Source: Oscillospiraceae bacterium (GTDB lineage: Bacteria; Bacillota; Clostridia; Oscillospirales; Ruminococcaceae). Taken from it: a DNA stretch of 59,733 bases. Below are positions 14,022 to 35,472 of the stretch, one piece after another; position 1 is the stretch's first letter, and the number at the start of each line of letters is the position of its first letter. The stretch lies in assembly GCA_017545185.1 (NCBI GenBank), contig JAFWQJ010000087.1, positions 1 through 59,733 of the forward strand, written 5' to 3'. The position numbers and the translations under genes are program-made. The notes beneath the pieces are model-generated. The model ran no database searches. It saw only the letters and a program-made list of their open reading frames with translations, and was not told the origin of the DNA.

Positions 14022-14218
14022 ATCCCTATGGATCTATGTGTGGCTATTGCTATGCCCATTTGCAGATCGGTGCGGCGGAGAAATCCGCAGTACCTGCTGT
14101 TCAAAACAGTGACTTCTGTTCTGGGTGCACGGGTTGCACACGGATAAAATACAAGGATGTGCCGGGTCGCTCCCCGGTGCTCCGAAACACACAATCTAGG
14201 CTTGCAGGAGGTGGTTTT

Positions 14219-15496: not shown

Positions 15497-17179
15497 ATGC
15501 TTTCTTTTGACATTACTGATCGTATTATCAGGATCATCAAGGGCACCGAGAGCGGCGGCAAGATCCGTATCAGCTCCGCAACGACCCTGAACCTGGAACC
15601 CGATATCATCGTGAACGGTCATGTTCGCGACGTCGCCCGCCTTGCTACGATGATCAATCAGGCCATCCGTGAAAAGAAGATGCCTGACAAGGAAGCAATC
15701 GTCAGCATTTCGTCCAACATGACGATCTTCAAGGAACTGCACATTCAGAAGGCTGAAAAGCAGCAGGACTTCATGAAGATGGTCCGTGCGGAAATGGCTG
15801 CAGCACTCGGCATCGACGAGTCCTATTCCGTTTCCTACATCATCGTCGGCGACTCCGACCAGACCGACGGCGCCGTCAAGGTGCTCGCAACGGCTTGTCC
15901 GTATGAAGTCGTTGACTGCTACAAGCGTGTGTTCAACATGCTGCAGATCAATCTGCGCAGCGTCATGATCGGCTGCAACTGCATCACCAAGGTCCTGCTG
16001 GCAGACAGCAAGATCAAGTCCAAGATGCCGCTGCTCGCTGTCCAGATCGACAACAACTTCATTTCCCTGAACCTCTATGAGAACGGCCAGCTTTCGTTCT
16101 CCCGTTTCGCTTCGATCTCTGCCGAGGACTACGATGATTCCGAGGATTACGTGTTCGAGGCAGTCAACGAAAACATTTTCCGTATGCTGCAGTTCCAGAA
16201 ATCCAAGACCGGCAGCGATCCGATTGAAAATGTTGTCTTCTACGGCGATACCCATGAGTATGTCCGTCTCACCAACGAGCTCGAGAAAATGGGCATTCGC
16301 ACCAGCATCATCAATGTGCCGCCGCAGATCCACGGCTACGAGAACCTCGAGTTCTCCTCCTATGCCAATGCGATCGGCGCAATGTACAAGCGCAACAAGG
16401 AGCATGAGCGCATCAACCTGCTCGAAACGGATACGATCAACAACAACAAGATCAAGTCCGACAGCTCCTACTTCCTGATCCTCGGCCTCTGTGCCCTGAT
16501 CGCTGCAGGCTCCTGCTTCGGTACATGGTTCTACCTGACCATGAAGAACAGAAGCTACGAAAAGCAGATCGCACTGATCCAGGAGAAGCAGGCATCCAAG
16601 TATGCGGCGTTCCTGGATGAGCAGCAGTCCATGCTGATCGAGAAGCAGGCGATCGTCAAGACCTATGTGAACGGCGCAAGAGATGCACTGAATGCATACA
16701 CCTCCAAGGCAAAGCCGGTTCGCAAGCACTATGACGAGCTGAAGGAAACGATCGATAAGGTCGTCGGTGAGGGCCTCGGGGTCGATCCGACGGACGAGAA
16801 GGCAATGGCAAAGGTGCTCGAGTACCGGAAGTTCGACTTCACGGACGGCGACTTCAATGTTGTCTTTGCTCATGATAAGGAAAAGGATACTCCGATGCCG
16901 ACGATCCCTTCGAAGGTGATTCGCGCACTGAGAGATCTTGACGATGTGATGGATGTCCAGTATACTGGCTACACGGTTGAGGGCAAGGAATCTGCTAAGG
17001 CGCAGGGCCAGCAGCAGCAGCAGCTGGACGATGACGGCAATCCGATCGCACCGCAGGGCGGCAACGATAAGGATGCTGCAACTGAGGTCGTCAAGATGGA
17101 ACTGCATATCTACGTGAAGGGCGACAAGGTCGACCTGAGCGTATACGAGCAGAGCGAAACTGCAGAGGAGGCACAGTAA
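15497..17179 (+). CDS. PilM-PilN fusion protein
   Basis: Residues 1-300 of 560 look like PilM, the actin-like cytosolic pilus protein (MLSFDITDRIIRIIKG start). At 306-310 the PilN entry signature INLLE appears, followed by a membrane helix (about 325-347), a coiled coil and an outside domain, ending in a Gln-rich stretch and a LHIYVKGD strand. In most bacteria PilM and PilN are separate and bind each other; here they are one chain. The C-terminus overlaps pilO by one base. Confidence 0.85.
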   Translation: MLSFDITDRIIRIIKGTESGGKIRISSATTLNLEPDIIVNGHVRDVARLATMINQAIREKKMPDKEAIVSISSNMTIFKELHIQKAEKQQDFMKMVRAEMAAALGIDESYSVSYIIVGDSDQTDGAVKVLATACPYEVVDCYKRVFNMLQINLRSVMIGCNCITKVLLADSKIKSKMPLLAVQIDNNFISLNLYENGQLSFSRFASISAEDYDDSEDYVFEAVNENIFRMLQFQKSKTGSDPIENVVFYGDTHEYVRLTNELEKMGIRTSIINVPPQIHGYENLEFSSYANAIGAMYKRNKEHERINLLETDTINNNKIKSDSSYFLILGLCALIAAGSCFGTWFYLTMKNRSYEKQIALIQEKQASKYAAFLDEQQSMLIEKQAIVKTYVNGARDALNAYTSKAKPVRKHYDELKETIDKVVGEGLGVDPTDEKAMAKVLEYRKFDFTDGDFNVVFAHDKEKDTPMPTIPSKVIRALRDLDDVMDVQYTGYTVEGKESAKAQGQQQQQLDDDGNPIAPQGGNDKDAATEVVKMELHIYVKGDKVDLSVYEQSETAEEAQ

Positions 17180-21014: not shown

Positions 21015-22133
21015 ATGAAGAAGAAGCTGAAAGGCATGACCCTCATGGAAGTCATCGTGTCCCTCTTCATTTATGCGCTGCTCGGCTTGCTTCTGATGGA
21101 GATCATGTCGGTTGTCAACACAACGATGCGTTCGACCAATCAGCTGAATGAGCGTCTCTCCTTTGAGGCGAAATTCGCTGATAACCAGATTGTCACACAG
21201 GCAACCCCCGGACGCATGGGCGGTGATGTGCACATTACCTACGGTGCAACAGGGTTCACGCCTGCGACACAGGTCGGCGAGATCGGTGCTGCGAACAACC
21301 GTACGCCCCATTTCAATGAGTGGGTGACACGTTATACCAATCCCAGACTGAACGGAACAGTTGACTTCTCTGAGGATATCAATTTCCGTTTTATTACCTA
21401 TACCAACGCAGCAGTGCAGGCGCAGTTCCCGGGCTATGCGTTCAACATGCATCTGATGGTTGTACCGTTCCTGAACCGCGACGGTCTGACCGATGCACAG
21501 AAGACGCAGGCACAGCAGAACGCATTTGACTTCATGAGCAATATCACCCGCGTGGAGGTCACGGCACTCGACAATGCCTCGCATTCTTATCTGATCGATG
21601 AGAACGCACTGAACCCGGATCCGCTGCAGCAGACTCCGGTTTACTGGGCCACGCCGAGCCGTACCCTTGCGAATACACCCGCTGAAATGTCGCAGATGGT
21701 TGATATGAGACTTCCGGGCGGCGGCGGCTGGAATCCTGCGGGCACGACCCCGCTGATCTTCGCGATCGAGAATCTGACACTCCCGACCGGTGAGACGCGT
21801 ATTCAGGTTTCCAACGACATCAGCAGCCAGGCGGAATCCAACGGCAGAGGCTACAACGTCGTCATCAACTTCATTGATGACAATGAGATCGACAACATCA
21901 CCGATCCTGCCAACCCGCAGCCGCTGGTCAGAATGTCCGTTGTGATCCCGAAGGTTTACATGTATGTCCTGCGCGGAACCACCGAGAGCTACTATTCTCA
22001 TTCGATGGCGATCATTGACCTCAATATCGCAACCTCTACACAAAACTTGACGGCACAGGAAAGAGCACGCGGTATCATCGTATGCAGAAGCAACAGCACG
22101 GGACTCTTCAACCTGGGAGATTACGATCAGTGA
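21015..22133 (+). CDS. Type IV minor pilin carrying a domain shared with dockerin cellulases
   Basis: The 372-residue protein has a prepilin leader (KKKLKG/MTLMEVIVSLF, Glu at +5) for the prepilin peptidase. Residues 138-372 form a domain that starts with FPGYAFNMHLMVVPFL and DGLTDAQKTQAQ and is clearly homologous to the segment between the cellulase and dockerin of the 32697-35369 product, and to the frameshifted 31318-32524 gene. In the best-conserved part about two thirds of residues agree by eye. The ATG at 21015 is supported by AAGGAGG at 21001-21007; an ATG at 20997 overlaps the previous stop. Confidence 0.85.
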   Translation: MKKKLKGMTLMEVIVSLFIYALLGLLLMEIMSVVNTTMRSTNQLNERLSFEAKFADNQIVTQATPGRMGGDVHITYGATGFTPATQVGEIGAANNRTPHFNEWVTRYTNPRLNGTVDFSEDINFRFITYTNAAVQAQFPGYAFNMHLMVVPFLNRDGLTDAQKTQAQQNAFDFMSNITRVEVTALDNASHSYLIDENALNPDPLQQTPVYWATPSRTLANTPAEMSQMVDMRLPGGGGWNPAGTTPLIFAIENLTLPTGETRIQVSNDISSQAESNGRGYNVVINFIDDNEIDNITDPANPQPLVRMSVVIPKVYMYVLRGTTESYYSHSMAIIDLNIATSTQNLTAQERARGIIVCRSNSTGLFNLGDYDQ

Positions 22134-22154
22134 CAAATGCTGATTATTTGGTGT

Positions 22155-22179
22155 CCCGGCAGGGCACGGCTCTGCCGGG
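22155..22179 (+). other. Intra-operon hairpin before the third minor pilin
   Basis: CCCGGCAG pairs with CTGCCGGG; no T run follows. Confidence 0.45.
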
Positions 22180-22205
22180 TGCCAAAGGAGAGGAGTAGAG
22201 AAACC

Positions 22206-23699
22206 ATGAAAATGAAACAGCGGTTAAAGGGCTTCACACTGGTTGAGCTGGTCGTTGTTATGGCACTGTTTTCATTGATCATGTTCAGTGTCCTTCAGCT
22301 ACTGATTCCGGTGTCAAGATTCTTTGTCCGAAGCGGAAACTTTGAGAGCGCCACGGCCTGTATGGATAACATGAAGATCGCGATCGAAGGCAACCTGAAG
22401 TATGCGGACCGCGTCCGCTGCTACGTGGACTATCAGCCTTATGCACAGGATCCGACTCTGATCCATGACAGCAACAGCGAGGCGACAACAGGACCGACTG
22501 CTCATTATACGCCGAGTGCGGACATGTACCGCCATGTGCAGAACTTCTATAATGAGTTCTTCGGCCGCAACAAGTCTCAGACGGATCAGAACGGCAGAGA
22601 ATGTGCGGACACGATCCTGACGACCAATGACGGCGCTGCCTATGCGGACAGCGCTCTGAGAGATTACATCAACTGCCGCGGCACGATCTATGTTATGGTG
22701 TTCGACAACAGTACACCGGCTGACTATTTCGACCGCACCAGCATTGATGACATCAGCTCCAGCAACGGCGTGCTGGTCGACTCTCTGCAGAGATTCAATC
22801 AGCTCCGCAAGAATGCAGGAAAGATCGTCTTGTATGAGTTCCCGTTCAACAACACGAGCGGCGAATTTGAGGCAGCGACGGCTGCGTACACGGTTCATCC
22901 GTGGTACGTCAACCAGAAGCTCTACGGCAATTTTGATTATCAGTTCATCCTGAATGATCAGGATCTCGTGACTGCGGGTGAGAGTTCATTTGACCAGTAT
23001 CTGGATCCGAGCGATACCAACGTCGGTACGACAGGCGCACTGAATCCGGGTGTTGACCCGGCAACGCTGACGGAGTTCCGTCCGGAGGACTGCACGATCT
23101 GGATCCGTTCCTACGAGATCAAGAAGGTCGGCGGCGAAAATCAGATGGATGCCGAAAACATCGGTCTGAACGGTGCTGCTTCCAGACTGATGCGCAATAT
23201 TCTCTTCAAGCGCTATTCTTCCTCTTTCTCGATGAAGAATGTCCTTGAGGCAGAGGGTGCACATGAGAACCTGAACTACGAAGATGCTTCCATGGATTAC
23301 AAGATCTTCCACGATCCGGCTATGGCAGGCTATGTCCAGAACCGTACAACAGGTCAGGAGTACTTCCAGGATATGCTGTACCCGATTCCGCGTTACCTCC
23401 CGCCGTTTATCCGCACAAACGCACTGAACGGCGATTATGCCGCACAGTATGCGAACAGACCTGAGCATCAGGAACCCTGCGAAGGCCCGAACTATGCAAG
23501 TGTTTCGGCGACGGTCAGCACGCCGACGACCGGCTTCCGCAACAACCTTGACGGAACGCTGGATGTTCCGGGCTTCTATTTCATCTTCACACTGCCCGAA
23601 ACGACCACCGGCTTTGCTGTTGACCAGCACGGCAATGTCTCTGAGGACAACGGCTACCTGCAGGCAGTCAACAACGCGTTTGCGAACCCGCCGACGTAA
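22206..23699 (+). CDS. Large type IV minor pilin
   Basis: This 497-residue protein has a classic prepilin signal (QRLKG/FTLVELVVVMALF, Glu at +5) and a large ectodomain without a recognised fold. It is far longer than usual pilins (150-200 residues). The ATG at 22206 follows GGAGAGGAG; a longer frame to 22137 runs through a hairpin and lacks a binding site. It is the last gene of the first pilus operon, closed by the bidirectional terminator at 23726. Confidence 0.85.
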   Translation: MKMKQRLKGFTLVELVVVMALFSLIMFSVLQLLIPVSRFFVRSGNFESATACMDNMKIAIEGNLKYADRVRCYVDYQPYAQDPTLIHDSNSEATTGPTAHYTPSADMYRHVQNFYNEFFGRNKSQTDQNGRECADTILTTNDGAAYADSALRDYINCRGTIYVMVFDNSTPADYFDRTSIDDISSSNGVLVDSLQRFNQLRKNAGKIVLYEFPFNNTSGEFEAATAAYTVHPWYVNQKLYGNFDYQFILNDQDLVTAGESSFDQYLDPSDTNVGTTGALNPGVDPATLTEFRPEDCTIWIRSYEIKKVGGENQMDAENIGLNGAASRLMRNILFKRYSSSFSMKNVLEAEGAHENLNYEDASMDYKIFHDPAMAGYVQNRTTGQEYFQDMLYPIPRYLPPFIRTNALNGDYAAQYANRPEHQEPCEGPNYASVSATVSTPTTGFRNNLDGTLDVPGFYFIFTLPETTTGFAVDQHGNVSEDNGYLQAVNNAFANPPT

Positions 23700-23725
23700 C
23701 AACAATTCCATAGCACAACGAAAAA

Positions 23726-23750
23726 GGGCAGCCGGTGTTGCCGGCTGCCC
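23726..23750. terminator. Bidirectional terminator between minor pilin and prepilin peptidase
   Basis: GGGCAGCCGG pairs with CCGGCTGCCC; T runs lie on the minus-strand side (TTTTTC) and weakly on the plus side. Confidence 0.82.
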
Positions 23751-23765
23751 GTATTTCAGACTGCT

Positions 23766-24668
23766 TCAGCGGAGAACCGAAGTCAGCAGAATGTATGCTG
23801 TTTCCGGATAGAAGCTGGAGCGCATGAACCGCATATACATTAAGGTGAGTTCCTCACCGAACATTGCACCAAGCAGCAGACCGATGCACAGGAACGGCCC
23901 GAACGCCATTTTGGATTCCGCTGTTTTCTTTTTCAGAATGATTCCGACGATTGCACCAAGAATAATGCCGATGAATGCCGCAGGAACAACGGCCTTCCAG
24001 CCGAGATAAACACCTGCACATGCCATCAGGATCGTATCACCAAGCTCAATACCGCGGATCTTTTCACCGGTTTTCTTCTTGATGAAAGCACCGCTGATCT
24101 CACCGATCAGGAAAAACGGCACGCTGACAGCGAAAAGCCCGATGACGCGGTCCACGATCGCGATTCTTGTGACGAAATGAGAGGGAATTGCAAGTGCCGC
24201 GATGATCAGCAGCATCGGAATGTACATATCCATCGTATCCCAGTCAATGAATGCGATGCAGATCAGCAGGGAAGCGAAAATGCACATCAGAAATGCATTC
24301 ACCTTCATGCCGAAGGCTGCAAAGCAGGCGAGATACAGAAATCCGTTGAGCGCTTCCACGATCGGGTACCGCGGCGAGATCTTTTCTCCGCAGCTGTGAC
24401 ATCTGCCCCGCAGGAACAGCCAGCTGAACACAGGGATCAGATCAATGATCCGGATCTTTGCACCGCAGGTCATACAGTGAGAGGAGCGCTTGATCAGCGA
24501 TTCACCGCGCGGCAGACGGATAATGACAACATTCAGAAAGCTGCCGATGCAAATGCCGTACAGAAACACGATCGGTACGGCTATGAGGAAGAACTTGGCG
24601 GGATAGAACTGCCATTCCTTCCACCCCTTTTGTGCTGCGAGTGCAGCAAGCGAACATATTTGGTACAT
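23766..24668 (-). CDS. pilD: Prepilin peptidase (type IV leader peptidase)
   Basis: This 300-residue membrane protein has the N-terminal methylase-like domain with two CxxC pairs (CMTCGAK, CHSCGEK) and YGICIGSFLNVVIIRLPRGES. The A24 aspartyl peptidase part follows, with Asp in FIDWDTM and in GIELGDTIL. The second motif departs from GxGDxK: the Lys is replaced. It would cleave and N-methylate the pilins encoded around it. The start at 24668 follows AAAGGAGGG. It is read opposite to the other pilus genes. Confidence 0.9.
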   Translation of the reverse strand: MYQICSLAALAAQKGWKEWQFYPAKFFLIAVPIVFLYGICIGSFLNVVIIRLPRGESLIKRSSHCMTCGAKIRIIDLIPVFSWLFLRGRCHSCGEKISPRYPIVEALNGFLYLACFAAFGMKVNAFLMCIFASLLICIAFIDWDTMDMYIPMLLIIAALAIPSHFVTRIAIVDRVIGLFAVSVPFFLIGEISGAFIKKKTGEKIRGIELGDTILMACAGVYLGWKAVVPAAFIGIILGAIVGIILKKKTAESKMAFGPFLCIGLLLGAMFGEELTLMYMRFMRSSFYPETAYILLTSVLR

Positions 24669-24699
24669 AACGGTACCCTCCTTTATGGTTTGTACTGTT

Positions 24700-24728
24700 A
24701 TTCTATCACAGATTTGCATATTTTTCAA
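24700..24728 (-). promoter_or_regulatory. Promoter of the prepilin peptidase gene
   Basis: Minus strand TTGAAA (24728-24723), 17 bases, TAGAAT (24705-24700). The -35 box ends only seven bases before the ribosome binding site of pilB on the other strand. Confidence 0.75.
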
Positions 24729-24748
24729 GAGTTTTTTGGAGGTTGAGT

Positions 24749-26410
24749 ATGAGAAACATCCGAATCGGTGACTACCTCGTTGAGGAAGGTCACATCACCC
24801 CGGAACAGCTGCAGCAGGTTCTGCAGAGACAGCGCGAATCGACCGATCAGAAAAAGTTTGGTGAGGTCATCGTCGAAATGGGCTTTATGTCCGACATCAA
24901 GTTCGCGCAGGCACTTTCCGTCAAGCTGCAGGTTCCGTTTGTTGACCTGAACAATGTCGAGATCGACGGTGAAATTGCGCGCAAGGTTCCGCAGGACCTC
25001 GCAGAGCGCAACTGCGTCATTGCGATCAACCAGACCGGACGCCGTCTGACTGTCGCCACGGATGACCCTGTCAACTTCAATATTCTGGAAGACATCAAGG
25101 TCAAGACCGGTTACGATACCATTCCGGTTCTCGCAACCAGAATGGCGATCAAGAAGGCAATCGGCAAGGCCTATCAGATGACCGATCTCGGTGACCTCGG
25201 TGCCGATACGACGCAGGGCGATATCCTGGACGATGAGGAATCCAGAGACCGTGTTGAGAGCGCCCCGATCGTTAAGCTCGCAACACAGATCGTCGAAAAC
25301 GCATTCCGTATGGAAGCAACGGATATTCATATCGAGCCGTTTGACAAGTACACCCAGATCCGTGTCCGTGTCAACGGTGACCTGATGACCCTGATGAACG
25401 TCTCCAGTAATGTCCAGAATCAGCTGGCAACCCGTCTGAAGCTGATCTCCGGCATGAACATCGCTGAAAAGCGTATCCCGCAGGACGGCCGTTTCTCGCA
25501 GACCGTTGACGGCATCCCGCTCGACGTCCGTGTTTCGTCCCTGCCGATGGTGCACGGCGAAAAGATCGTTATCCGAATCCTGTCCACCGGCGCGATCAAG
25601 ACGCGCGGCCTGCATGAGCTCGGTATGTCGGATTACAACTTCCGCCTGTTCGAGAGCATGATCAAGTGCCCGCACGGCGTTATCCTCGTTACCGGCCCGA
25701 CCGGTTCCGGTAAGTCCACCACGCTGTACGCAGCACTGGGCGCGATCGCTAGACCGGAAGTCAACGTCGTTACCGTTGAGGACCCGGTTGAAAAGCAGAT
25801 GGACGGCATCAACCAGTGCCAGATCAATGTCAAGTCCGGTATGACCTTCCCGGCGGCGCTTCGTTCGATTCTCCGTCAGGACCCGGATATCATCATGATC
25901 GGTGAGATGCGTGACGGTGAGACCGCTGAGATCGGTATCCGTGCTGCTATCACCGGCCACCTCGTTCTTTCCACGCTGCATACCAATGACGCAGCTTCCA
26001 CGATCGTCCGTCTGATCGACATGGGCATCCCGGCTTACATGGTCGCTTCCTCGCTGATCGGCGTTGTCGCACAGCGTCTCGTTAAGGTTCTGTGTCCGAA
26101 GTGCAGAAAGCAGAGAATGTCCACGCAGGAAGAGAATGAGTTGATGCATATCGACCATTCTGTCCCGATCTACGATGCAGTCGGCTGCAACGAGTGCGGC
26201 GGCGGCTATCGCGGACGTACTGCAATCCACGAGATCATCCACTGCACAGGCAGTATCTCTACGCTGATCGCGAACGGCGCAAGCACCGAGCAGCTCGAAT
26301 CGACTGCGCGTGCAAACGGCACCAAGCTCCTGCGTGATAACGTCTCCGATCTGGTGCAGCAGGGTGTCACCACCATGGAAGAGCTTATCCGTGTTACCTA
26401 CGCGGTTTAA
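24749..26410 (+). CDS. pilB: Type IV pilus assembly ATPase PilB
   Basis: The 553-residue protein has the GspE/PilB N-domain (IGDYLVEEGHITPEQLQQVL), Walker A GPTGSGKSTTLYAALG, the Asp box, Walker B (DPDIIMIGEMRDGETAEI) with the His box (GHLVLSTLHTND), and a zinc motif (CPKCRKQ ... CNECGGGYRGR). These are the marks of the extension ATPase that powers pilin polymerisation at the PilC platform. The ATG at 24749 follows TTTGGAGG. It is followed 30 bases later by pilT. Confidence 0.95.
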   Translation: MRNIRIGDYLVEEGHITPEQLQQVLQRQRESTDQKKFGEVIVEMGFMSDIKFAQALSVKLQVPFVDLNNVEIDGEIARKVPQDLAERNCVIAINQTGRRLTVATDDPVNFNILEDIKVKTGYDTIPVLATRMAIKKAIGKAYQMTDLGDLGADTTQGDILDDEESRDRVESAPIVKLATQIVENAFRMEATDIHIEPFDKYTQIRVRVNGDLMTLMNVSSNVQNQLATRLKLISGMNIAEKRIPQDGRFSQTVDGIPLDVRVSSLPMVHGEKIVIRILSTGAIKTRGLHELGMSDYNFRLFESMIKCPHGVILVTGPTGSGKSTTLYAALGAIARPEVNVVTVEDPVEKQMDGINQCQINVKSGMTFPAALRSILRQDPDIIMIGEMRDGETAEIGIRAAITGHLVLSTLHTNDAASTIVRLIDMGIPAYMVASSLIGVVAQRLVKVLCPKCRKQRMSTQEENELMHIDHSVPIYDAVGCNECGGGYRGRTAIHEIIHCTGSISTLIANGASTEQLESTARANGTKLLRDNVSDLVQQGVTTMEELIRVTYAV

Positions 26411-26440
26411 TTGCGGAACGGAAGAAAGTGAGGATCTACT

Positions 26441-27550
26441 ATGCCTACAATTGTTGTCAATAAAATTCTGGACGATGTCCGTGCACTCGGCTGTTCTGAC
26501 CTTCATTTTACGGTCGGCATCAACCCGGTCGTGCGTCTGCACGGTCAGCTCCGTAAGATGAGCAGCTACCCCGAAATGACCGATGAAATGATCGCAGAGA
26601 TCGTTGAGCAGATGACCAATGAGCAGCAGCGTCAGAACGTCGTCAAGCGCATTGATACGGACTTCTCGTATACCACGCGCGCAGGCTTCCGTCACCGCTG
26701 CAACATCTTCCACCAGCGCGATCATCTGGCTGTCGCGATCCGTCTGCTCCGCAACGACATCCCGACGCTGGACGACCTGTTCATGCCGCCGATCATGTCC
26801 GAATTTGCAATGCGTCCCCGCGGCCTCGTGCTCATCACCGGCCCGACAGGTTCCGGTAAGTCCACCACGCTGGCCGGTATGATCGACTATGTCAACTGCA
26901 ACAAGAGCGCACACGTTATCACGATTGAGGACCCGATCGAGTATGTACACGAGCACAAGCGCTGCATGGTCAATCAGCGTGAGGTCGGCCTGGATGTCCC
27001 GAACTTCGCAATGGCACTGAGAGCTGCCCTTCGTGAAGACCCGGACGTCATCCTCGTCGGCGAAATGCGTGACTTCGAGACCATTCAGGCTGCGATCACC
27101 GCGGCTGAAACCGGTCACCTTGTTTTCTCCACGCTTCATACCACTTCCGCACCGGATACCATCAACCGTATCATCGACGTTTATCCGGAGCACCAGCAGG
27201 TTCAGATTCGTACCCAGCTCGCAAACGTCCTCGTCGGCGTTGTGTCCCAGACGCTGCTTCCGCTCAAGAACGGCACCGGCCGTATCGCGGCAATGGAAGT
27301 CCTGAACGTCACCGACGCAATCGCTGCGATGATCCGTGAGGGTAAGATCCACCTGATCCTGAGCTCGATCCAGGCAGGTAAGGCACACGGCATGATGTGC
27401 CTCGACCAGGAGCTCGCGCGTCTGGTCAAGAACAACACGGTCAACGAGATCGACGCACTCGAGAAGTGCCAGGACAAGACCGAGTTCTACCGTTACCTGA
27501 CCTCTATGGGCGGCCAGTCCGTCATCACCAGAGAGGGCATTATCGGTTGA
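26441..27550 (+). CDS. pilT: Type IV pilus retraction ATPase PilT
   Basis: The 369-residue protein has the shorter PilT layout without the GspE N-domain or zinc motif. It contains AIRLLRNDIPTLDDL, Walker A GPTGSGKSTTLAGMIDYVN, the Asp box HVITIEDPIEYVH, Walker B EDPDVILVGEMRD and the AETGHLVFSTLHT His box. PilT drives pilus retraction, so these pili should be able to retract for twitching or for pulling substrate to the cell. It is in one operon with pilB and is followed by a strong terminator. Confidence 0.95.
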   Translation: MPTIVVNKILDDVRALGCSDLHFTVGINPVVRLHGQLRKMSSYPEMTDEMIAEIVEQMTNEQQRQNVVKRIDTDFSYTTRAGFRHRCNIFHQRDHLAVAIRLLRNDIPTLDDLFMPPIMSEFAMRPRGLVLITGPTGSGKSTTLAGMIDYVNCNKSAHVITIEDPIEYVHEHKRCMVNQREVGLDVPNFAMALRAALREDPDVILVGEMRDFETIQAAITAAETGHLVFSTLHTTSAPDTINRIIDVYPEHQQVQIRTQLANVLVGVVSQTLLPLKNGTGRIAAMEVLNVTDAIAAMIREGKIHLILSSIQAGKAHGMMCLDQELARLVKNNTVNEIDALEKCQDKTEFYRYLTSMGGQSVITREGIIG

Positions 27551-27559
27551 TTTAACAGA

Positions 27560-27587
27560 ACCCCTCCGATCCGTCGGAGGGGTTTAA
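27560..27587 (+). terminator. Terminator after pilT
   Basis: ACCCCTCCGA pairs with TCGGAGGGGT around TCCG, followed by TT. Nothing coding is seen from here to 27757. Confidence 0.82.
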
Positions 27588-27757
27588 TTGTATAACAAAT
27601 GTACGCATCCTTAATTAAATATAGCCTTCAGCCTTAGCTTTTGAAATAAAAGCCTGATAAGTTTTGTGCAATACGTCAAAAACGACACCAAAAAATCGCC
27701 AAAAAAATTCGCTTTCGTAAAAGTTTGTTCACAATTCAGAAATATTGCGGAAAAGAC

Positions 27758-27786
27758 TTGACATTTCCGTTTGGTTATGTTATACT
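27758..27786 (+). promoter_or_regulatory. Strong promoter of the major pilin gene
   Basis: TTGACA (27758-27763), 17 bases, TATACT (27781-27786). A ~100-nt leader follows with a small stem GCAGA/TCTGC. Confidence 0.85.
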
Positions 27787-27891
27787 AAGACCATGGAAAG
27801 CAGATACACCGTATGACGTCTGCGGGAGGTACTGCAAATCCGATCAAAAAAGCAGGCAACTGCGACAAGTTTCTGAGGAGGTTTATTTATC

Positions 27892-28425
27892 ATGAAAAAG
27901 AAAGGTTTTACCCTGATTGAGCTGATCGTTGTTATCGCTATCATCGGCGTTCTGGCAGCTCTCCTGATCCCGGCTATGATCGGTTACATCAGAAGATCCA
28001 AGATCACTTCTATGAACTCTTCTGCAAAGCAGATCATGACCGCTGCTTCTTCTGCAATGACTGATATCGACGCAGAAGACAGACCCGGCATTGCAATCAC
28101 TGATTTCGCAGGCCAGACCATTAATTTCGTTCCTGCTGCAAATGCAACGACTGCTCCGACTGCTTCCGGCATGACCAATACCAACGCAATGAACAGATGC
28201 CGCGACAAGATGTGGCAGTACTTCGATGGCCTGAACAACCTCGACAATTCTGCTGTTCGTTTCAATGCTAACGGTATTCCGGTTGCAACCGCAGTTGTTG
28301 ACAACGGTTATCCGGGAACCAACCCGATGCAGTTCGCTGTTGAGGATTGGCGCAACAACCTGACTACCGCTCTTCTTCTGCCGTATGCAGAGAATGGCCA
28401 ATTTGCAGCAGCTCCGACGACCTAA
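27892..28425 (+). CDS. pilA: Type IV major pilin (PilA-like)
   Basis: The 177-residue protein has the classic short leader MKKKG and then FTLIELIVVIAIIGVLAALLIPAMIGYI, cleaved by the prepilin peptidase before Phe with Glu at +5. The C-terminal part is polar and Ala/Thr/Asn-rich. A strong own promoter, AGGAGG and the usual pilin length make it the likely major subunit. It is followed by a second pilin in the same direction with a modest hairpin between. Confidence 0.93.
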   Translation: MKKKGFTLIELIVVIAIIGVLAALLIPAMIGYIRRSKITSMNSSAKQIMTAASSAMTDIDAEDRPGIAITDFAGQTINFVPAANATTAPTASGMTNTNAMNRCRDKMWQYFDGLNNLDNSAVRFNANGIPVATAVVDNGYPGTNPMQFAVEDWRNNLTTALLLPYAENGQFAAAPTT

Positions 28426-28476
28426 TTGATAGAGCGTCTGGAACTTAGCTGACTGCTGAGTCAACCGAATAAAAGC

Positions 28477-28502
28477 AGCGCCTCCCTCGGGAGGCGCTCT
28501 TT
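28477..28502 (+). terminator. Hairpin between the two small pilin genes
   Basis: AGCGCCTCCC pairs with GGGAGGCGCT, followed by CTTTG. The weak T run may let some transcripts read through to the second pilin, which has no clear promoter of its own. Confidence 0.65.
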
Positions 28503-28564
28503 GTAGAAGACAATTTGTTAAATGACGTAAATGAGCTTTATGCTTGCGATTTGAGGGATCCGAT

Positions 28565-29107
28565 ATGAAGAAGAAAGGTTTTACGCTGATCGAGCTGGTT
28601 GTTGTGATCGCGATCATCGGTATTCTGGTTGGCCTGCTGGTGCCGGCATTGCTTGGATATATTGCCAAGGGCAAGATCCAGAATGCAAACAGTGCCGCGC
28701 GCGAGGTTCTGAACGGCATGAACATCGCCTACGTGGAGATGATCCAGCAGAATTTTGATGTCAGTTTTCTGGACGGTACCAATTCCGTTTCCGTTTCGGA
28801 CTTTATGACATCCGTCAACCGGAATGTGCACGTTGCTCATACGAATAACGTCGATGATCTGACTTCGATCTTCTATGCGAAGGTGCACAACTATTTCAGC
28901 GATATTGAGCATGTTGACAATGTCAGCTTCGCTGTTGCGGACGGTGCGTGTACAGCTACAGGCGTCATCATCCGCGGTTATCCGGGTTCGCATCCGATTG
29001 CAATCGGATCGGACAATTATCAGGAGGAAATTCGCAACGGTGTGACATGGACTTCTGATCTTGCGCTGACTTACGCGCTTGGCAGAGGTTCCACCCAGAC
29101 GACGTAA
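28565..29107 (+). CDS. Type IV pilin, second copy
   Basis: The 180-residue protein shares the N-terminal leader and helix with the pilin before it (MKKKGFTLIELVVVIAIIGI) but diverges afterwards. It keeps similar landmarks near the end (IIRGYPGSHPI versus VVDNGYPGTNPM), so the two arose by duplication. The ATG at 28565 follows GAGGGA. It could be a minor or alternative subunit made by readthrough. Confidence 0.9.
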   Translation: MKKKGFTLIELVVVIAIIGILVGLLVPALLGYIAKGKIQNANSAAREVLNGMNIAYVEMIQQNFDVSFLDGTNSVSVSDFMTSVNRNVHVAHTNNVDDLTSIFYAKVHNYFSDIEHVDNVSFAVADGACTATGVIIRGYPGSHPIAIGSDNYQEEIRNGVTWTSDLALTYALGRGSTQTT

Positions 29108-29119
29108 AACAGAATTGCT

Positions 29120-29152
29120 GCCCCCTTTCCCATGCAGGAAAAGGGGGCTTTC
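29120..29152 (+). terminator. Terminator after the second pilin
   Basis: GCCCCCTTTCC pairs with GGAAAAGGGGGC around CATGCA, followed by TTTC. Confidence 0.8.
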
Positions 29153-29163
29153 TTATGCAAAAA

Positions 29164-29195
29164 AATCGGAGCACCTGCCTTTCAGCAGATGCTCC
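29164..29195 (-). terminator. Terminator of the first GH5 cellulase gene
   Basis: GGAGCACCTGC (29168-29178) pairs with GCAGATGCTCC (29185-29195); on the minus strand GATTTTTTT follows. Confidence 0.85.
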
Positions 29196-29203
29196 GTTGT
29201 GTT

Positions 29204-31075
29204 TCAGTCCTCCGGGCCGAGATCATCTTTGGTGATCATCTTTGCGATGTACTTGATGATCTTGACGACACAGTCACTTGTGGGCGGTTCGCCCTTTTTG
29301 ATCATTCGGACATTCGCGAGTCCCTGATCCGTGATCTCCGCCGACGAATCGCCAACCAAAAAGCGGCAAAGCAGCACAGCGTCGGAAACATCCACTTTAT
29401 CATCGAGGTTCGCGTCGCCCCATTTTTCCGGCTGGAGTTGCCTGGCACCGGTTGTTTCATCGGCGGGCTGCTCTGTGATTACTTCCGCGGTCGTTTCCGC
29501 AGTTGTGATGACAGCCTCGGTCGTCGTAACAGGTGCAGCGGTCGTGGTGACCGGCGCGGCCGTCGTCGTGACAGGCGGAGCCGTCGTCTCCTTTGGGGTC
29601 GGGGTCACGGTTGAGGACGAATGTCCCTGCTGCCCCTTGGAGCCGCCGTCCAGATTGCTGCTTTCGCCGGATGCGAGATACTGCGAGAGCGACAGGCCGT
29701 TCTTCCCGAGCGGCACCTGATGATCCAGACCGATGTACTTGCCGGAAGCGGTCTGCCAGAGGGCTTCCTCAAACAGCTTGTATTTCGGCTCGTTCCAGTC
29801 GATCGTCGTGCCGGAGCCCTGCATGAACTGGAGGCCGTTCCAAAGTCCGCCGGTATCGCCGGAGTTCGTGTTCAGGCACCAGAACGTGTGATTGATGTGA
29901 TGCTTGATCATGTAATCGCGGAGCAGCGTCATCCATTTCAGGTTGTCACCCTCCATGTGGCCGCCCCATTCGCCGATCAGCTCCGGTGCGATGTCCTCGG
30001 CATTGATGTATGCCCAGGTGTCGTACCAGTAATCGTCGAGCAGCGTCTGCTCGGTGAAGTTCTTGTCGAACCATGTCTGTGCGTAAACGGACGGGCCGTA
30101 GTCGTGCGGGGAGTAGACGATCTGGCTGGTGCCGTGCTTCGGCTTGATCGGATACTCACGCGCGCCGCGGAAGTTTCCGCCCCACCATGCGCCGATATAC
30201 GGCGAATTGTCGCGTCTGTCCGCCATGCCCCAGTAGTCGCCCTCCATGGCGCCGCTCATGGACTGCTCAACGCCTTCAATGAGGATCAGCGCGTTCGGGT
30301 TGACATCGAGGATCGCGTCTGCGCATTTTGTTGCGGCATACGCCCAGTTGTTCTCGTCCGTGGAGCCGTCCCATTTTGCTGCGGCTTCGCCCTCCTGACC
30401 CTTGCCGTGCGGCTCATTCTTGAGGTCGTAGGCGAGCAGGGTATCGTCGTTCTTATACTTGTCCGCCAGCCAGACGAGCGTCTCGATCCACTTTTCCGTA
30501 GTGATGCCGGCCTTGCCGTACCAGAGATTGTAGTTGTGGCCGGAGTTGTCGGTATGCGGGCTGTGGATATCAATAAACGCCTTGATACCGTACTTTTTGC
30601 ACTTCGCCATGATGATGTCGAAGATCTCCATGCTGTTCTTCAGCGTTTTGCCGTCCTCCTCGCAGAAGTCCGGATTGATCGTGAATGCGGGATCGGCATT
30701 CGCGGAAACGCTGTTGACCGGATTCGGTGAGCCCTTCATCCACGAGAGGATCAGCTCGGATGCGATCGGGAAGCGGATGATGTTGATGCCGCGGTCTGCG
30801 ACGCTCTGCAGAACGTCATCGACGTCTGCCGACCAGAGATAATGCACGCAGTTCTCGGAGCAGTTGAAGCCGAACCAGTTTGCGCCGGTCAGCCAGACCT
30901 CGTGGCCGTCCTTGTCGAAGATGCGGCTGCCCTCACAGTGGAGCCAGTCATCGTTCATGTCATCGGCGGCGATTGCTGTGACAGGCTCCTGCACGGTCTT
31001 ACCCGTAAAGCCGAGCGTGCCTGTCGCGGTGATAAGTGCTGCCAGACAAACGGCAGCAAGATGTGAGTGCTTCAT
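29204..31075 (-). CDS. Secreted GH5 cellulase with C-terminal dockerin (A)
   Basis: The 623-residue protein has a signal peptide (processing after about residue 36) and a GH5 TIM barrel: RGINIIRFPI, HSPHTDNSGHNYN, acid/base Glu221 in DLKNEPHG and nucleophile Glu369 in LIGEWGG. A Thr/Pro linker (about 495-550) leads to a dockerin (WGDANLDDKVDVSDAVLLCRF). The second dockerin repeat lacks the usual calcium ligands. It should cleave beta-1,4-glucan and dock to a cohesin. The start at 31075 has AAGGAGG. It is a one-gene unit directly after the pilus genes, convergent to them. Confidence 0.93.
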   Translation of the reverse strand: MKHSHLAAVCLAALITATGTLGFTGKTVQEPVTAIAADDMNDDWLHCEGSRIFDKDGHEVWLTGANWFGFNCSENCVHYLWSADVDDVLQSVADRGINIIRFPIASELILSWMKGSPNPVNSVSANADPAFTINPDFCEEDGKTLKNSMEIFDIIMAKCKKYGIKAFIDIHSPHTDNSGHNYNLWYGKAGITTEKWIETLVWLADKYKNDDTLLAYDLKNEPHGKGQEGEAAAKWDGSTDENNWAYAATKCADAILDVNPNALILIEGVEQSMSGAMEGDYWGMADRRDNSPYIGAWWGGNFRGAREYPIKPKHGTSQIVYSPHDYGPSVYAQTWFDKNFTEQTLLDDYWYDTWAYINAEDIAPELIGEWGGHMEGDNLKWMTLLRDYMIKHHINHTFWCLNTNSGDTGGLWNGLQFMQGSGTTIDWNEPKYKLFEEALWQTASGKYIGLDHQVPLGKNGLSLSQYLASGESSNLDGGSKGQQGHSSSTVTPTPKETTAPPVTTTAAPVTTTAAPVTTTEAVITTAETTAEVITEQPADETTGARQLQPEKWGDANLDDKVDVSDAVLLCRFLVGDSSAEITDQGLANVRMIKKGEPPTSDCVVKIIKYIAKMITKDDLGPED

Positions 31076-31266
31076 GACAGTTTTCCTCCTTTTTTGTTTG
31101 CGGCACTTTGCGGCATACCGCAGGCCCTCTTTCTGCGGCGGCCGTGCCGTCAGTCGCAACCGTGCCGGTCAGTGCACGGTTCCTCATTATAATTTTAGCA
31201 TATTGGCATGAATCAGATGTGGATAAATTGTTGACAAACTGTGAATAACCGCAATTTTCGGACAAA

Positions 31267-31299
31267 AAACCCCTCTCTGCGCAATACAGAGAGGGGTTT
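31267..31299. terminator. Terminator after the frameshifted dockerin gene
   Basis: AAACCCCTCTCTG pairs with CAGAGAGGGGTTT; on the minus strand TTTTTTGTC follows. Confidence 0.88.
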
Positions 31300-31317
31300 G
31301 TTTGCTGCATTATACAG

Positions 31318-32524
31318 TCAGTGATGTACTTCGGAGAAATACGGGTTTCTGTCGTCAGTCTCGTCCTCATACCCGGCGTTCGGGTTTCTGTCTGTATGCG
31401 GGCCAAACGGGTTCCCGACGACTTTGTGCTCCGGCCGCTCCGGTGTGAGATCCTCTGCCTTGATCTTCTTTGCGGTAAACTGAAGAATTTTCGTCACATC
31501 ATCGGTCGTGATGTCCTCACCGTTTGTGACCCGGCTGTTCCGGAGACCCTGACTTGTGATCACGGCCTCTCTGTCACTGACCAGATATCGCGAGAGCAGC
31601 ACAGCATCTGCGATATCGACTGCGCCGTCGGTGTTGACGTCGCCCCATTGGATGCCCGGGTTGAAATCGTCCGCGTTATACTGATAGATGATGCTGCCGA
31701 CAGATTCGTTCTTCAGCTCATCCATGGTGAATATACCTATACTATTGCTGTCGAAGCCGCGCAGCGCCGGCTGCTCCGATGCGGTGAGCCGGTGCAGGTC
31801 GAGCACGAAACTGGCATAACTGTAATACGGATACCAGCCGGCCTCTTTCTTCTGTTTCTCAAACATGACGATGCTCGGGAGCTCCAGCGTGAGCAGCTCA
31901 GCTTCGCTGCTGTCCTCATTATCAGCGATGAATTTCACTTTGACTGTATAGCCGCCGCTGTCTTCGGTCGTGACCGTTTCGCGAACATCTCTTGGCTTAG
32001 CGAGCTGCTCGATCGCGAAGTACATCGGCGTTGTTCCTGCGGGATTCCAGCTGCCCGGAGACTGCATATCCGCAATGTCCTGCATATGCCAGTATGTATC
32101 GGCCAGAATACGGGTGTTGGACGGCCAGTAGACCGGATCCGGGATCTCCGGCAGCGGGTATTTATTCATCGGCATAGTATGAACACCACTGGTCGCCCTC
32201 GTTTTCGTTGATCAGATGCGATTTGCCGGAGGAATCCTTTGCTTCCGCTTCGATCCGCTTCACATGTGACATAAAGTTGAAGGCATCAGTCTGCGCCTGT
32301 GTTTTTTCGGCATCGGTCAGGTTATCGTCCTCCGTGAACGGCACGACCATAAGGTGGACATAGAACGGATAGCCCGGCCATTCCTCAACAATGAGCGGTT
32401 CCTCCAGGAAAACCGTTTCCTCCGGCAGGATGTCCGTCATATCGGTTTCGGCAAAGCTCTGCACAGCCGTGCCTGTCAAGGTCATGATCGCAGCCAGAAC
32501 GGCAGCCGCGAATTTGTGTTTCAT
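31318..32524 (-). pseudogene. Frameshifted secreted dockerin protein with the pilin/cellulase shared domain
   Basis: Part one (32524-32162, 120 codons) has a signal peptide and the start of the shared domain (WPGYPFYVHLMVVPF, DNLTDAEKTQAQ). Part two (32175-31318) continues the same domain in another frame (VYWPSNTRILADT, WNPAGTTPMYFAIE), then a dockerin (WGDVNTDGAVDIADAVLLSR) and a polar tail. The break lies at 32162-32175, in the middle of the domain. There is no catalytic domain, so the intact protein would have been shared domain plus dockerin. A sequencing error, a true pseudogene or a translated frameshift are all possible. Confidence 0.75.
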
Positions 32525-32657
32525 CGTATTCCCCTCCTTTTCATGTCGGCGGCATCTCAGCGGTACGGTTCTTCGATGCCTGCTTTGATTGTAGCAGATT
32601 GCAGTGAATCCGGAATAAACAAAATGTTTCGGAATTGTAAACTTGCGTATTTGCTGA

Positions 32658-32690
32658 AAAACCTCCCTGTTTGACACAGGGAGGTTTTTT
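32658..32690 (-). terminator. Terminator of the second GH5 cellulase gene
   Basis: AACCTCCCTGT (32660-32670) pairs with ACAGGGAGGTT (32676-32686), with T runs on both sides. Confidence 0.88.
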
Positions 32691-32696
32691 GATGAT

Positions 32697-35369
32697 TCAG
32701 TTGATGCTTGCGCCGGACTCGTGAAGAACCGAACTGGTTGTCGGCTGAAAAGGAGCAAGCTCATCCTTGTTGATGATCTTGGCGATGTACCGCAGGATCT
32801 TCGTGATGTCATCGGAGACCACAGAGGCTCCGGTTGTGACGGCACTGTTCTTGAGGCCCTGATCGGTGACCGTTGCAGTGACATCGCTGACCAGATACCG
32901 TGCCAGCAGCACCGCATCCGAAACATCGACCTTGCCGTCGGTGTTGGTGTCGCCCCAGTCCGCGCTCGGAGCCGGGTTCTGAGAGACGGTAACTGTTCTG
33001 TAGACCACGCTGACTTTCGGGCTGTCAGCAGGCTTGCTGATGTCGAAAATGCCGGTATCATTGCTGCCGTAACCGCGCAGGCTCTGATCCCGTACAGCGG
33101 AACTGGCGGAGTCGATGTTGTTCAGGTCAACCAGCACCATGGTGTGACTATAACAGTGCGTTGCACCGTCTTTCTTTTCACACATCACAATGCGCGGGAT
33201 CTCCACGGTGAGTGCTTCTAATTCTTTATTGTTAAATTCCGAGATGAACTTCACTATGATGTTGTAGCCTTGTCCGTTGCTTTCCGCTGCATTATCCTTA
33301 TCATTGGTGACCGTATCGCGCGCCTCGTTTGTCGGTGCGGTCAGGTTTTCGACTGCGAATGTCAGCGGGGCAGTTCCGTTTTTATTCCAGCCGCCCGCAG
33401 CATCCCGCATATCCACAAGTCCCTGCATTTCGGCAGCGGTGCCGGCAAGCACGCGTGTATCCTGCGGATAATAGACGGGGCCGGACTGGCTGACTGCGGT
33501 TTCGTCGATCAGATGCGATTTGCCGGAGGAATCCTTTGCCTCAACTTCGATGCGCTTGATTTTCGCCATGAAATCAGTCGCAGCATTCTGCACCGCCGTT
33601 TTTTGTGCATCGGTCAGGCCGTCATCCTCAAGGAACGGCACCAGCATCAGATTGACGTTGAATGCATAGCCCGGGAAAGAATACTCATTCGGGTTTTCAG
33701 GAACTGTCGTGGTCGGCACGGTCGTAGTCGTGGTCGGAACGGTCGTCGTGACCGGTGCGGCCGTTGTCGTGACGGGCGGCTGCGTGGTCTGCTGGACAGG
33801 CGGGTTATCCACAACGGAATGACCCTGTCCGCCGGGGCCGCCTGCGTCAAGGTTGCTGCCCTCGCCGGAGGAATAGAACTGGGAGAGCGAATAGCCGTTC
33901 TTGCCGAGCGGTGTCTGGTGATCGAGGCCGATGTACTTGCCGCCGGAAGATTTCCAGAGCGCTTTTTCAAACAGCGCGTACTTGGCAGCATCCCACTCCT
34001 TGAACTGCGTATCAAGCAGACCCTCGGTATCGCCCGAATTGGGGTTCAGGCACCAGAAGGTGTGATTGATGTGGTTTTTGATCATGTAATCGCGCAGAAG
34101 CTCCATCCACTTCTTGTTCGCGGTTTCCATTTTGCCGCCCCACTCGCCGATCAGCAGCGGTGCGATATCCTGTTCGTTGATATATGCCCATGTGTCGCGC
34201 CAGTAATCATCGAGCAGTGTCTCCTCGGTAAAGTTCTTGTCAAACCATGTCTGCGCATAAACGGAAGGACCGTAATCATGCGGGGAGTAGACGATCTGAC
34301 CGGAATCCGGAAGAACCGGCAGGTCCTTGACGCCGCGGAGATTGCCGCCCCACCATGCGCCGTACCACTTCGGCTTGTCGCGGCTCGGGTCGGTAATGAA
34401 CTGATCGGCGGTATTCCAGTCATAGCCCTGATCGAACATAGGAGACTGTTCAATGCCTTCGATCAGGATCAGCGCGTGCGGATTGACTGCAAGGATCGAC
34501 TTTGCACATTCCTCTGCGGAATACTTCCAGTTGTTCTTGTCCGTCGAATCATCCCATTTTGCAATCGTATTCGGGCATTCGGTTCCGGAATATCCGCGCT
34601 TGCCGTGCGGTTCGTTTTTCAGGTCATAGGCAAGGATCGTGTCATCATTTGCATATTTCTTCGCCAGCCATGTAATGGAATCCTTCCAGTCATCCCATGT
34701 GATCTGCTTCTTGCTGAAATGACCGATCGCCATATTGCCGGCATCTTCAGCGCCCTCCTGGTAATACCAGAGATTGTAGTTATGACCGGAATTGTGCGCT
34801 GCAGGGCTGTGAACATCAATCAGTGCCTTGATGCCGTACTGCTTGCATTTCTTCATAATGATGTCGAAGATCTCCATGGAGTTCTTCAGCGTTTTGCCGT
34901 CGGATTCAACTAGATCACGGTTGATATCACCGTATGCGCCTGCCTTTGTGACGGTTCCGTCTTCGCCGATTTCATCCTGCGGCGGGTTGTAGGATGCATT
35001 GACCGAGCTGACCGGCAGCGGGTCGCCGTCCATCCACGAAAGCAGCAGCTCCGTGGAGATCGGGAAGCGGATGATGTTGATGCCGTGGCTTGAGACATTG
35101 TCCAGCATATAGTCCAGATCGACGGCATAAAGACCGTGCGGTGCGTTTTCCGTACAGTTCATGCCGAACCAGTTTGCACCGGTCAGCCAGACCTCCTTGC
35201 CGTTCTTGTCAAAGAGACGGCTGCCCTCGGCATGGAGCCAGTCGTCGTTTCCGTCATCCGCGGCGGAAACATTCATCGGGATCTGTACGGTGCTGCCCGC
35301 AAATCCGACAGTTCCCGTTGCGGTGATGACCGCTGCCAGCGCGGCTGACAGCAAAGCTTTGTGTTTCAT
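32697..35369 (-). CDS. Secreted GH5 cellulase with shared pilin-type domain and dockerin (B)
   Basis: The 890-residue protein has, in order: signal peptide; GH5 domain closely similar to cellulase A (acid/base Glu253 in DLKNEPHG, nucleophile in LIGEWGG); Thr/Pro linker near 520-560; a ~225-residue domain from FPGYAFNVNLMLVPFLEDDG (about 564-790) also found in the minor pilin at 21015-22133; and a dockerin (WGDTNTDGKVDVSDAVLLAR). GH5 and dockerin suggest cellulosomal beta-glucan hydrolysis; the middle domain has no known function. The start at 35369 follows GAGAGGGGG. Confidence 0.93.
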   Translation of the reverse strand: MKHKALLSAALAAVITATGTVGFAGSTVQIPMNVSAADDGNDDWLHAEGSRLFDKNGKEVWLTGANWFGMNCTENAPHGLYAVDLDYMLDNVSSHGINIIRFPISTELLLSWMDGDPLPVSSVNASYNPPQDEIGEDGTVTKAGAYGDINRDLVESDGKTLKNSMEIFDIIMKKCKQYGIKALIDVHSPAAHNSGHNYNLWYYQEGAEDAGNMAIGHFSKKQITWDDWKDSITWLAKKYANDDTILAYDLKNEPHGKRGYSGTECPNTIAKWDDSTDKNNWKYSAEECAKSILAVNPHALILIEGIEQSPMFDQGYDWNTADQFITDPSRDKPKWYGAWWGGNLRGVKDLPVLPDSGQIVYSPHDYGPSVYAQTWFDKNFTEETLLDDYWRDTWAYINEQDIAPLLIGEWGGKMETANKKWMELLRDYMIKNHINHTFWCLNPNSGDTEGLLDTQFKEWDAAKYALFEKALWKSSGGKYIGLDHQTPLGKNGYSLSQFYSSGEGSNLDAGGPGGQGHSVVDNPPVQQTTQPPVTTTAAPVTTTVPTTTTTVPTTTVPENPNEYSFPGYAFNVNLMLVPFLEDDGLTDAQKTAVQNAATDFMAKIKRIEVEAKDSSGKSHLIDETAVSQSGPVYYPQDTRVLAGTAAEMQGLVDMRDAAGGWNKNGTAPLTFAVENLTAPTNEARDTVTNDKDNAAESNGQGYNIIVKFISEFNNKELEALTVEIPRIVMCEKKDGATHCYSHTMVLVDLNNIDSASSAVRDQSLRGYGSNDTGIFDISKPADSPKVSVVYRTVTVSQNPAPSADWGDTNTDGKVDVSDAVLLARYLVSDVTATVTDQGLKNSAVTTGASVVSDDITKILRYIAKIINKDELAPFQPTTSSVLHESGASIN

Positions 35370-35423
35370 GATAGAATCCCCCTCTCGAAATTTGAGCATG
35401 TGAAACACGGTGAATATAACAAT

Positions 35424-35456
35424 GCAGCGGAATGCCCCTCGCCTGCATCCCGCTGC
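35424..35456 (-). terminator. Weak terminator after sseB
   Basis: GCAGCGGAATGC pairs with GCATCCCGCTGC with one mismatch; on the minus strand TTGTTATATT follows. It lies between sseB and cellulase B. Confidence 0.5.
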
Positions 35457-35472
35457 ACCGTTTGTACATAGA

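Follow-up and report, generated by a model that had tools for sequence, protein, structure and literature searches.

What does it mean when a subunit of a type IV pilus and enzymes of the cellulosome bear the same domain? This question is raised by contig JAFWQJ010000087.1 of an Oscillospiraceae bacterium (genome G000), all 59,733 nt of which were analysed and are referred to below as the window. A minor pilin, a glycoside hydrolase family 5 (GH5) cellulase and a frameshifted dockerin protein encoded there share one segment, called the head in what follows. As argued below, the head appears to belong to the minor pilins of the genus, from which copies seem to have passed to secreted proteins, and it may well serve as a binding module.

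The head on a minor pilin and on dockerin proteins

The features that carry the argument are these:

21015..22133, forward strand: minor pilin with the prepilin signal KGMTLMEV and a pilin N-terminal part that spans residues 1-136 ("minor" from its size and gene order)
21423..22130, forward strand: head copy 1, pilin residues 137-372
32697..35369, reverse strand: GH5 cellulase, Thr-rich linker, head and dockerin, in this order, 890 aa (Pfam Cellulase, 9.5e-44)
33039..33677, reverse strand: head copy 2, GH5 residues 565-777 (E 5e-60 by BLASTP, E 1.4e-55 in the genome search)
32162..32524, reverse strand: N-terminal piece of the frameshifted head-dockerin gene, with a signal peptide (by eye) and the start of head copy 3, ending at TAA
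31318..32160, reverse strand: C-terminal piece of the same gene, with the rest of head copy 3 and a dockerin (Dockerin_1, 23.6 bits)

Residues 138-367 of the pilin and 565-777 of the GH5 protein are identical at 107 of 230 aligned positions (47%; E 5e-60, BLASTP), which rules out a chance or low-complexity match. The first-pass annotation of this DNA had proposed that a type IV minor pilin and dockerin proteins have just such a module in common, and its details hold as well: all of its landmark motifs are present in the same order, and its figure of 33 agreeing residues among the first 49 equals the count on the printed alignment. It was also right about a third copy in the frameshifted dockerin gene: identity with the GH5 copy is 69% over 58 aa in the N-terminal piece and 42% over 250 aa in the C-terminal piece, a stretch that takes in the dockerin. 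In the assembly, the reading frame does shift near 32160, the N-terminal piece stopping at the TAA and the remainder lying in another frame. A search of the window genome with the pilin head returned three strong copies, all of them in the window, and one weak copy on contig C14.

As regards the carriers, the protein encoded at 21015..22133 has the class III signal peptide and, in its model, the hydrophobic helix (residues 10-56) of a type IV pilin; its N_methyl score is below the cut-off (16.5 against 21.2 bits), as are weak matches to GspI and ComGF. Its gene adjoins those for PilM, T2SSF, two T2SSE ATPases and a prepilin peptidase. The non-pilin carriers are marked as cellulosomal by a dockerin in the same protein and by cohesins in the genome: Dockerin_1 (cut-off 22.9 bits) scores 19.1 bits in the 890-aa GH5 protein, below the cut-off, and is above it in the frameshifted protein, and the window genome gives 24 cohesin matches, 18 of them over the cut-off.

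Pfam and NCBIfam hold no family that matches the head segment of the pilin or of the GH5 protein, in keeping with the earlier remark that no named family was at hand. A search of PDB sequences with the pilin returned nothing up to E 10, and fold identification gave no confident match for the head. In the model of the GH5 head, the block-mean predicted local distance difference test (pLDDT) score is 79-94 across the first 190 residues of the construct, while the pilin model is of low confidence (mean pLDDT 56.4; residues 51-109 and 112-136 below 50). Rather than a separate fold added behind a complete pilin domain, the head may be the beta domain of the pilin itself.

Carriers and descent of the head within the genus

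The comparison set consisted of 30 genomes of the genus, among them metagenome-assembled genomes, in which frameshifts can be created or masked by assembly error. A homologue of the pilin N-terminal part occurs in 26 of the 30. We aligned 24 of these pilins, leaving out those of G013 and G020, and sorted 22 of the 24 into hidden Markov model (HMM) groups: A (G000, G001, G002 and G006), B (eight pilins), C (four) and D (six). Twelve genus pilins share 28 invariant columns, 25 of which lie in the first 57 residues, the remainder of the protein being divergent. HMM-HMM comparison links the group A pilin head to the GH5 copy (probability 99.9), to copies on leucine-rich repeat (LRR)-dockerin proteins (99.1) and to group B heads (96.9, E 1.5e-10); for pilin groups C and D it did not show homology to the group A head. 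The link to the group B pilins, together with the N-terminal homologue in 26 genomes, argues that the segment is the C-terminal head of the genus minor pilin and not a guest unique to the window.

Profile searches of the genus (A1, A5, A6, A7 for group D, and A8), with profiles built from the heads met in this analysis, so that head types beyond A to D may escape, found 22 head copies outside pilins in nine of the 30 genomes (six with A1, four with A5 and 12 with A8). The second module of this pilin is thus also found on proteins unrelated to pili, as in modular pilins. With 21 of the copies on dockerin-type proteins, neither a module private to the locus nor a module of all secreted proteins fits these counts. 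Of the first-pass annotation, the presence of the module on a pilin and on enzymes nearby stands, and its tie to this one locus does not. The annotation had also named a common secreted-protein module without any pilus link as the outcome that would speak against it; the module does recur on secreted proteins, and the pilin is its commonest carrier, so that the objection holds by half at most.

The architectures are GH5-head-dockerin, GH5-dockerin-head, GH11-dockerin-head, LRR-head-dockerin, dockerin-head and a sigma-linked membrane protein. Profile A1 matched the pilins, the two window copies and one LRR_5-head-dockerin protein in each of G000, G001, G002 and G006. Profile A5 placed a group C head C-terminal to the dockerin of a GH5 protein in G016, G019, G025 and G027; the gene lies by the pilus genes in G016, G019 and G027, and in G025 pilin and GH5 are on separate contigs. 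The 12 group B heads outside pilins (profiles A6 and A8) include those of dockerin-head proteins (two each in G000, G002 and G006, one in G001), of proteins with an unknown part, dockerin and head (one each in G016, G019 and G027), of a GH11-dockerin-head protein in G009 (Glyco_hydro_11, E 1.3e-15) and of the sigma-linked membrane protein of G009. Profile A7 matched six places in the genus genomes, all in pilins. Family-wide scans with profiles of types A and B covered 396 genomes from 126 genera, including seven members of the genus; three of the 396 matched with A1 and five with A8, all from the genus itself, in a search that can miss diverged relatives. Dockerin_1 was found in all 14 dockerin-type carriers scanned with Pfam (nine at or over the cut-off, five under it), and the remaining seven of the 21 were assigned by eye. 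In the window GH5, the G019 GH5 and the G009 GH11 proteins, the head is joined to a glycoside hydrolase in the manner of a carbohydrate-binding module (CBM), its non-catalytic nature being our assumption.

The G009 membrane protein is encoded by a gene that overlaps by 4 bases one for an extracytoplasmic function (ECF) sigma factor (TIGR02937, E 2.5e-23), the pair lying at L152:4903-6974 (G009:C18). By eye, a membrane span precedes its outer module, whose head is 55% identical over 255 columns to the pilin head of its own species. Its N-terminal region matched no Pfam family up to E 0.5 and no NCBIfam anti-sigma family, and we therefore call the protein sigma-linked rather than an anti-sigma factor. 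Both non-pilin heads of G009 (L142, L140) have a common hairpin insertion of ~50-60 residues, which is short in the eight aligned group B pilins. A different insert of ~90-100 residues is seen between linker and dockerin in the GH5-dockerin protein of G013 (L090).

A tree was built from 18 heads. In it, the copies on the GH5 and frameshifted proteins group with the G000 and G002 pilins (98/97), standing outside that pilin pair (99/97), and the LRR heads are separate (100/100); the approximately unbiased (AU) test disfavours uniting the GH5, frameshifted and LRR copies in a single clade (p 0.0226). In the group B tree, the pilin, GH11 and sigma-linked heads of G009 form one clade (98/98), and the three heads of the proteins with an unknown part and dockerin form another (99/98). 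In group C, a support of 65/82 makes species-paired capture no more than a possibility. Since captured heads group with their own clade's pilin in two cases, we conclude from these topologies that the head has been captured more than once. The direction appears to have been from pilin to enzyme, because the pilins are more widely spread.

The sister genome G002 (Ruminococcus sp. Phil11, MSGZ01000008.1) is collinear with the window, at 83% over 14 kb and 95% over 4.4 kb. In this collinear region the GH5 linker runs into the dockerin without a head, and there is no head-dockerin gene; either the head was gained in the window lineage or there were losses in G002. On a possible capture inside the window's own species, later than its separation from G002, sites and tree point different ways: where the pilins of G000 and G002 differ, the GH5 head matches G000 at 19 sites, G002 at 10 and neither at 35, but in the tree it lies outside both. 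The GH5 gene is itself apparently mosaic (window 32697-36420, upstream sequence included): its first ~340 bases and the upstream sequence are 95% identical to G002, and its catalytic part shows 83.5% identity to a GH5 gene of G011 as against 77.8% to the G002 one.

A further peculiarity concerns the GH5-dockerin-head genes of G016, G025 and G027 (L085, L083 and L082, reverse strand), where the GH5-dockerin frame stops at a TGA right after A_AAA_AAC and the head lies in the -1 frame, open downstream for 189-228 codons. At the same junction, G019 (L086) has ten A and a G, with the head in frame. The ratio of nonsynonymous to synonymous substitution rates (dN/dS) of the -1-frame head between G025 and G016 is 0.34 for the first 175 codons and 0.50 when the full 217 aligned codons are counted; the corresponding values are 0.086 in the GH5-dockerin part and 0.23 in the pilin head. 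Between G000 and G002 the ratio is 0.22 for the pilin heads and 0.39 for the LRR heads. Thus, dN/dS is below 1 in all pairs tested. Such values fit a head that is translated via -1 slippage and is under weaker constraint than the enzyme, which makes the site a candidate; alternatively, the A_AAA_AAC_TGA junction may reflect decay or assembly error. The downstream RNA stem is weak in the three loci folded (z -1.65 in G025, -1.27 in G027 and 0.33 in G019).

The pilus locus and its cellulase neighbours

The other features of the locus are listed below; labels without a library match were given by eye.

14036..15412, forward strand: PilC/GspF platform protein (Pfam T2SSF, 9.4e-62)
15497..17179, forward strand: PilM (Pfam PilM_2, 5e-13)
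18142..20997, forward strand: PilX/GspK-like membrane protein of the pilus operon (label by eye, from position and an N-terminal hydrophobic stretch; no Pfam match)
22137..23699, forward strand: second large minor pilin, KGFTLVEL, downstream of the head pilin (N_methyl, 27.4 bits)
23766..24728, reverse strand: prepilin peptidase (Pfam A24_N_bact, 5.8e-35; Peptidase_A24, 9.4e-9)
24743..26410, forward strand: assembly ATPase, PilB type (Pfam T2SSE, 2e-127; MshEN, 4.7e-18)
26441..27550, forward strand: second ATPase, PilT type by eye (Pfam T2SSE, 1.7e-46)
28565..29107, forward strand: short pilin, probably the major pilin, convergent with the GH5 genes (N_methyl, 33.7 bits)
29204..31081, reverse strand: second GH5 cellulase, without a head; dockerin-like C-terminus by eye, no Pfam dockerin match

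The second GH5 protein gave no match in the genome search with the pilin head. Across the genus, 21 of the 24 parsed pilin loci have a second pilin of the KGFTL type no more than 1.5 kb away. In 13 of the 26 genomes, pilin and a GH5 gene (E up to 1e-60) are at most 15 kb apart; one of these genomes, G007, has a more distant GH5 with 50% identity. Two further genomes have a GH5 gene farther away on the same contig (24 and 45 kb), and on the pilin's contig of the other 11 there is none. Of 30 GH5 loci scanned, six (L079, L080, L090, L097, L100 and L105) have a pilin signal sequence at a distance of up to 1.5 kb, and the second GH5 gene of the window, which lay outside that scan because it was centred on the other GH5, also has one nearby, that of the convergent short pilin. 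Shared descent accounts for much of this adjacency, and we therefore regard it as conserved order and not as 13 independent events.

Possible function of the head

GH5 and GH11 enzymes, LRR proteins and a sigma-linked protein are typical carriers of CBMs, and so, at the level of protein architecture, the wider carrier set seems to favour ligand binding over attachment to the pilus. We propose that the head is a putative CBM-like binding module common to pilus, cellulosome and sensor, with plant fibre as its most likely target, and we hold this reading to be about evenly balanced between right and wrong. The exposed C-terminal head of the pilin is predicted to fold autonomously as an extracellular binding module, whose ligand would most likely be a component of plant fibre, and the pilus would display it to hold fibre. 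Copies would move repeatedly onto dockerin-bearing GH5 and GH11 enzymes and onto non-catalytic dockerin and LRR proteins, as well as onto the outer part of the ECF sigma-linked membrane protein; adhesion, digestion and perhaps sensing would thereby address one target. It is tempting to go further and suppose a new, pilus-born family of binding modules, traded among pilus, cellulosome and sigma-factor sensor and governing how fibre is found, held, digested and sensed, with one clade's enzyme bearing the head only via a -1 slip at A_AAA_AAC_TGA, so that enzyme with and without the fibre grip would be made in a constant ratio; this fuller scenario we regard as possible but doubtful.

Conservation along the head bears on how it might be used. 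Of the sites common to the G000 and G002 pilin heads, the GH5 copy keeps 27 of 37 in residues 137-185, 20 of 32 in 186-245 and 19 of 29 in 246-285, and the frameshifted copy 26 of 37, 20 of 32 and 10 of 24. In the hairpin (311-337) these two copies keep 10 and 7 of 25 sites, against 14 and 15 of 25 in more distant pilins; retention is also low in the insert (4 of 10 in GH5, 4 of 11 in the frameshifted copy) and in the tail (7 and 8 of 20). The [ML]Y pair was counted in 12 pilins of groups A and B and in 15 non-pilin heads out of 22. All 12 pilins have it in their C-terminal hairpin, and so do two non-pilin heads, both from G009, which rules out that the pair is always lost outside pilins; since the rows are related, the Fisher value of 6e-6 is not a true probability. 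We read the hairpin patch as probably required in the pilus and free to vary elsewhere, a divergence that favours binding and counts against docking via the same surface.

Docking in this sense means that the head of a dockerin protein binds the minor-pilin complex, or the pilus head in a homotypic manner, which would tether cellulosomal enzymes to the pilus. The GH5 genes close to the pilin in half of the 26 genomes, the capture of the carriers' own pilin-type head in two lineages and the enzyme-free head-dockerin proteins, which would be suitable as adaptors, all speak for it. Yet the hairpin pair of the pilins is absent from 13 of the 15 non-pilin heads, and of 12 sites (314-327) invariant in four pilins the GH5 copy keeps two and the frameshifted copy three, whereas at 140-170 each keeps nine of ten (hand count). 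Moreover, group B heads occur on dockerin proteins in species with group A or C pilins, so that head types are not always matched. Overall, docking seems unlikely to us.

Less likely again is an inert or structural role, in which a compact beta-domain acts as a spacer or stabiliser and the captures are accidents of recombination between genes for secreted proteins. The mosaic GH5 gene, the absence of its head copy from the sister genome and a dN/dS that is higher in the head than in the enzyme part would agree with such a role, but that ratio remains below 1, and the copies, found at several loci with varied partners, nearly all dockerin-type, are a non-random set. The head might also bind a ligand other than a plant carbohydrate, such as a protein or surface glycan of the host, of a neighbour or of the cell itself, as vWA modules do. 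LRR_5 partners point this way, and a minor-pilin complex of Streptococcus sanguinis is reportedly glycan-binding, which we count for the same explanation. The modular pilin PilB of that species binds host proteins (PMC8179133). The GH5 and GH11 carriers, however, indicate plant fibre, and we consider a non-plant ligand the most improbable of these alternatives.

Several known systems invite comparison. Type IV pili of Ruminococcus albus mediate adhesion to cellulose (PMC6916266), and a Ruminococcus flavefaciens pilin occurs in the cotton-bound fraction and is 19-fold up on Avicel (PMC3672088). As with R. albus CbpC/GP25 and R. flavefaciens Pil3, type IV pilins tied to cellulose adhesion or growth in bacteria named Ruminococcus (PMC3672088, PMC6916266), the carrier here is a pilin; Pil3, however, is 14 kDa, too small for a pilin part plus head, and its likely counterpart in the window would be the short pilin at 28565-29107. 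S. sanguinis PilB and PilC are likewise large minor pilins with an extra region also found in non-pilin proteins, the role of PilB being adhesion (PMC8179133, PMC6916266). Modular pilins are thus already known (PMC8179133); in those cases it was the pilin that received a general domain (vWA, lectin), whereas here a head present in pilins of many species of the genus apparently went to enzymes. CBM37 of R. albus is also found on GH5, on other enzymes and on LRR proteins within one bacterial lineage (PMC4300822), but our head, likened to it by carrier types alone, also occurs on a pilin, has ~210 residues and is only putatively binding. RsgI of Clostridium thermocellum, finally, is a sigma-factor-linked membrane protein with an outer module of a kind also present on cellulosomal proteins, and the outer parts of such proteins include polysaccharide binders (PMC4711584); unlike RsgI, the G009 protein is paired with an ECF-type sigma factor, and its N-terminal region is without a Pfam or NCBIfam anti-sigma match. 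In the accessible literature treating both pilins and dockerins, with subscription literature mostly outside this coverage, we found no report of a shared domain.

How type IV pili and cellulosomes hold fibre jointly in ruminococci has been a question ever since a link between pilins and adhesion to cellulose became known (PMC6916266, PMC3672088). The head, borne alike by a minor pilin, by GH5 and GH11 enzymes and by a sigma-linked protein, offers a small target for addressing it directly. If our reading is true, the head would be a new module of the cellulosome, and the heads of pilins could be a source of binding modules.

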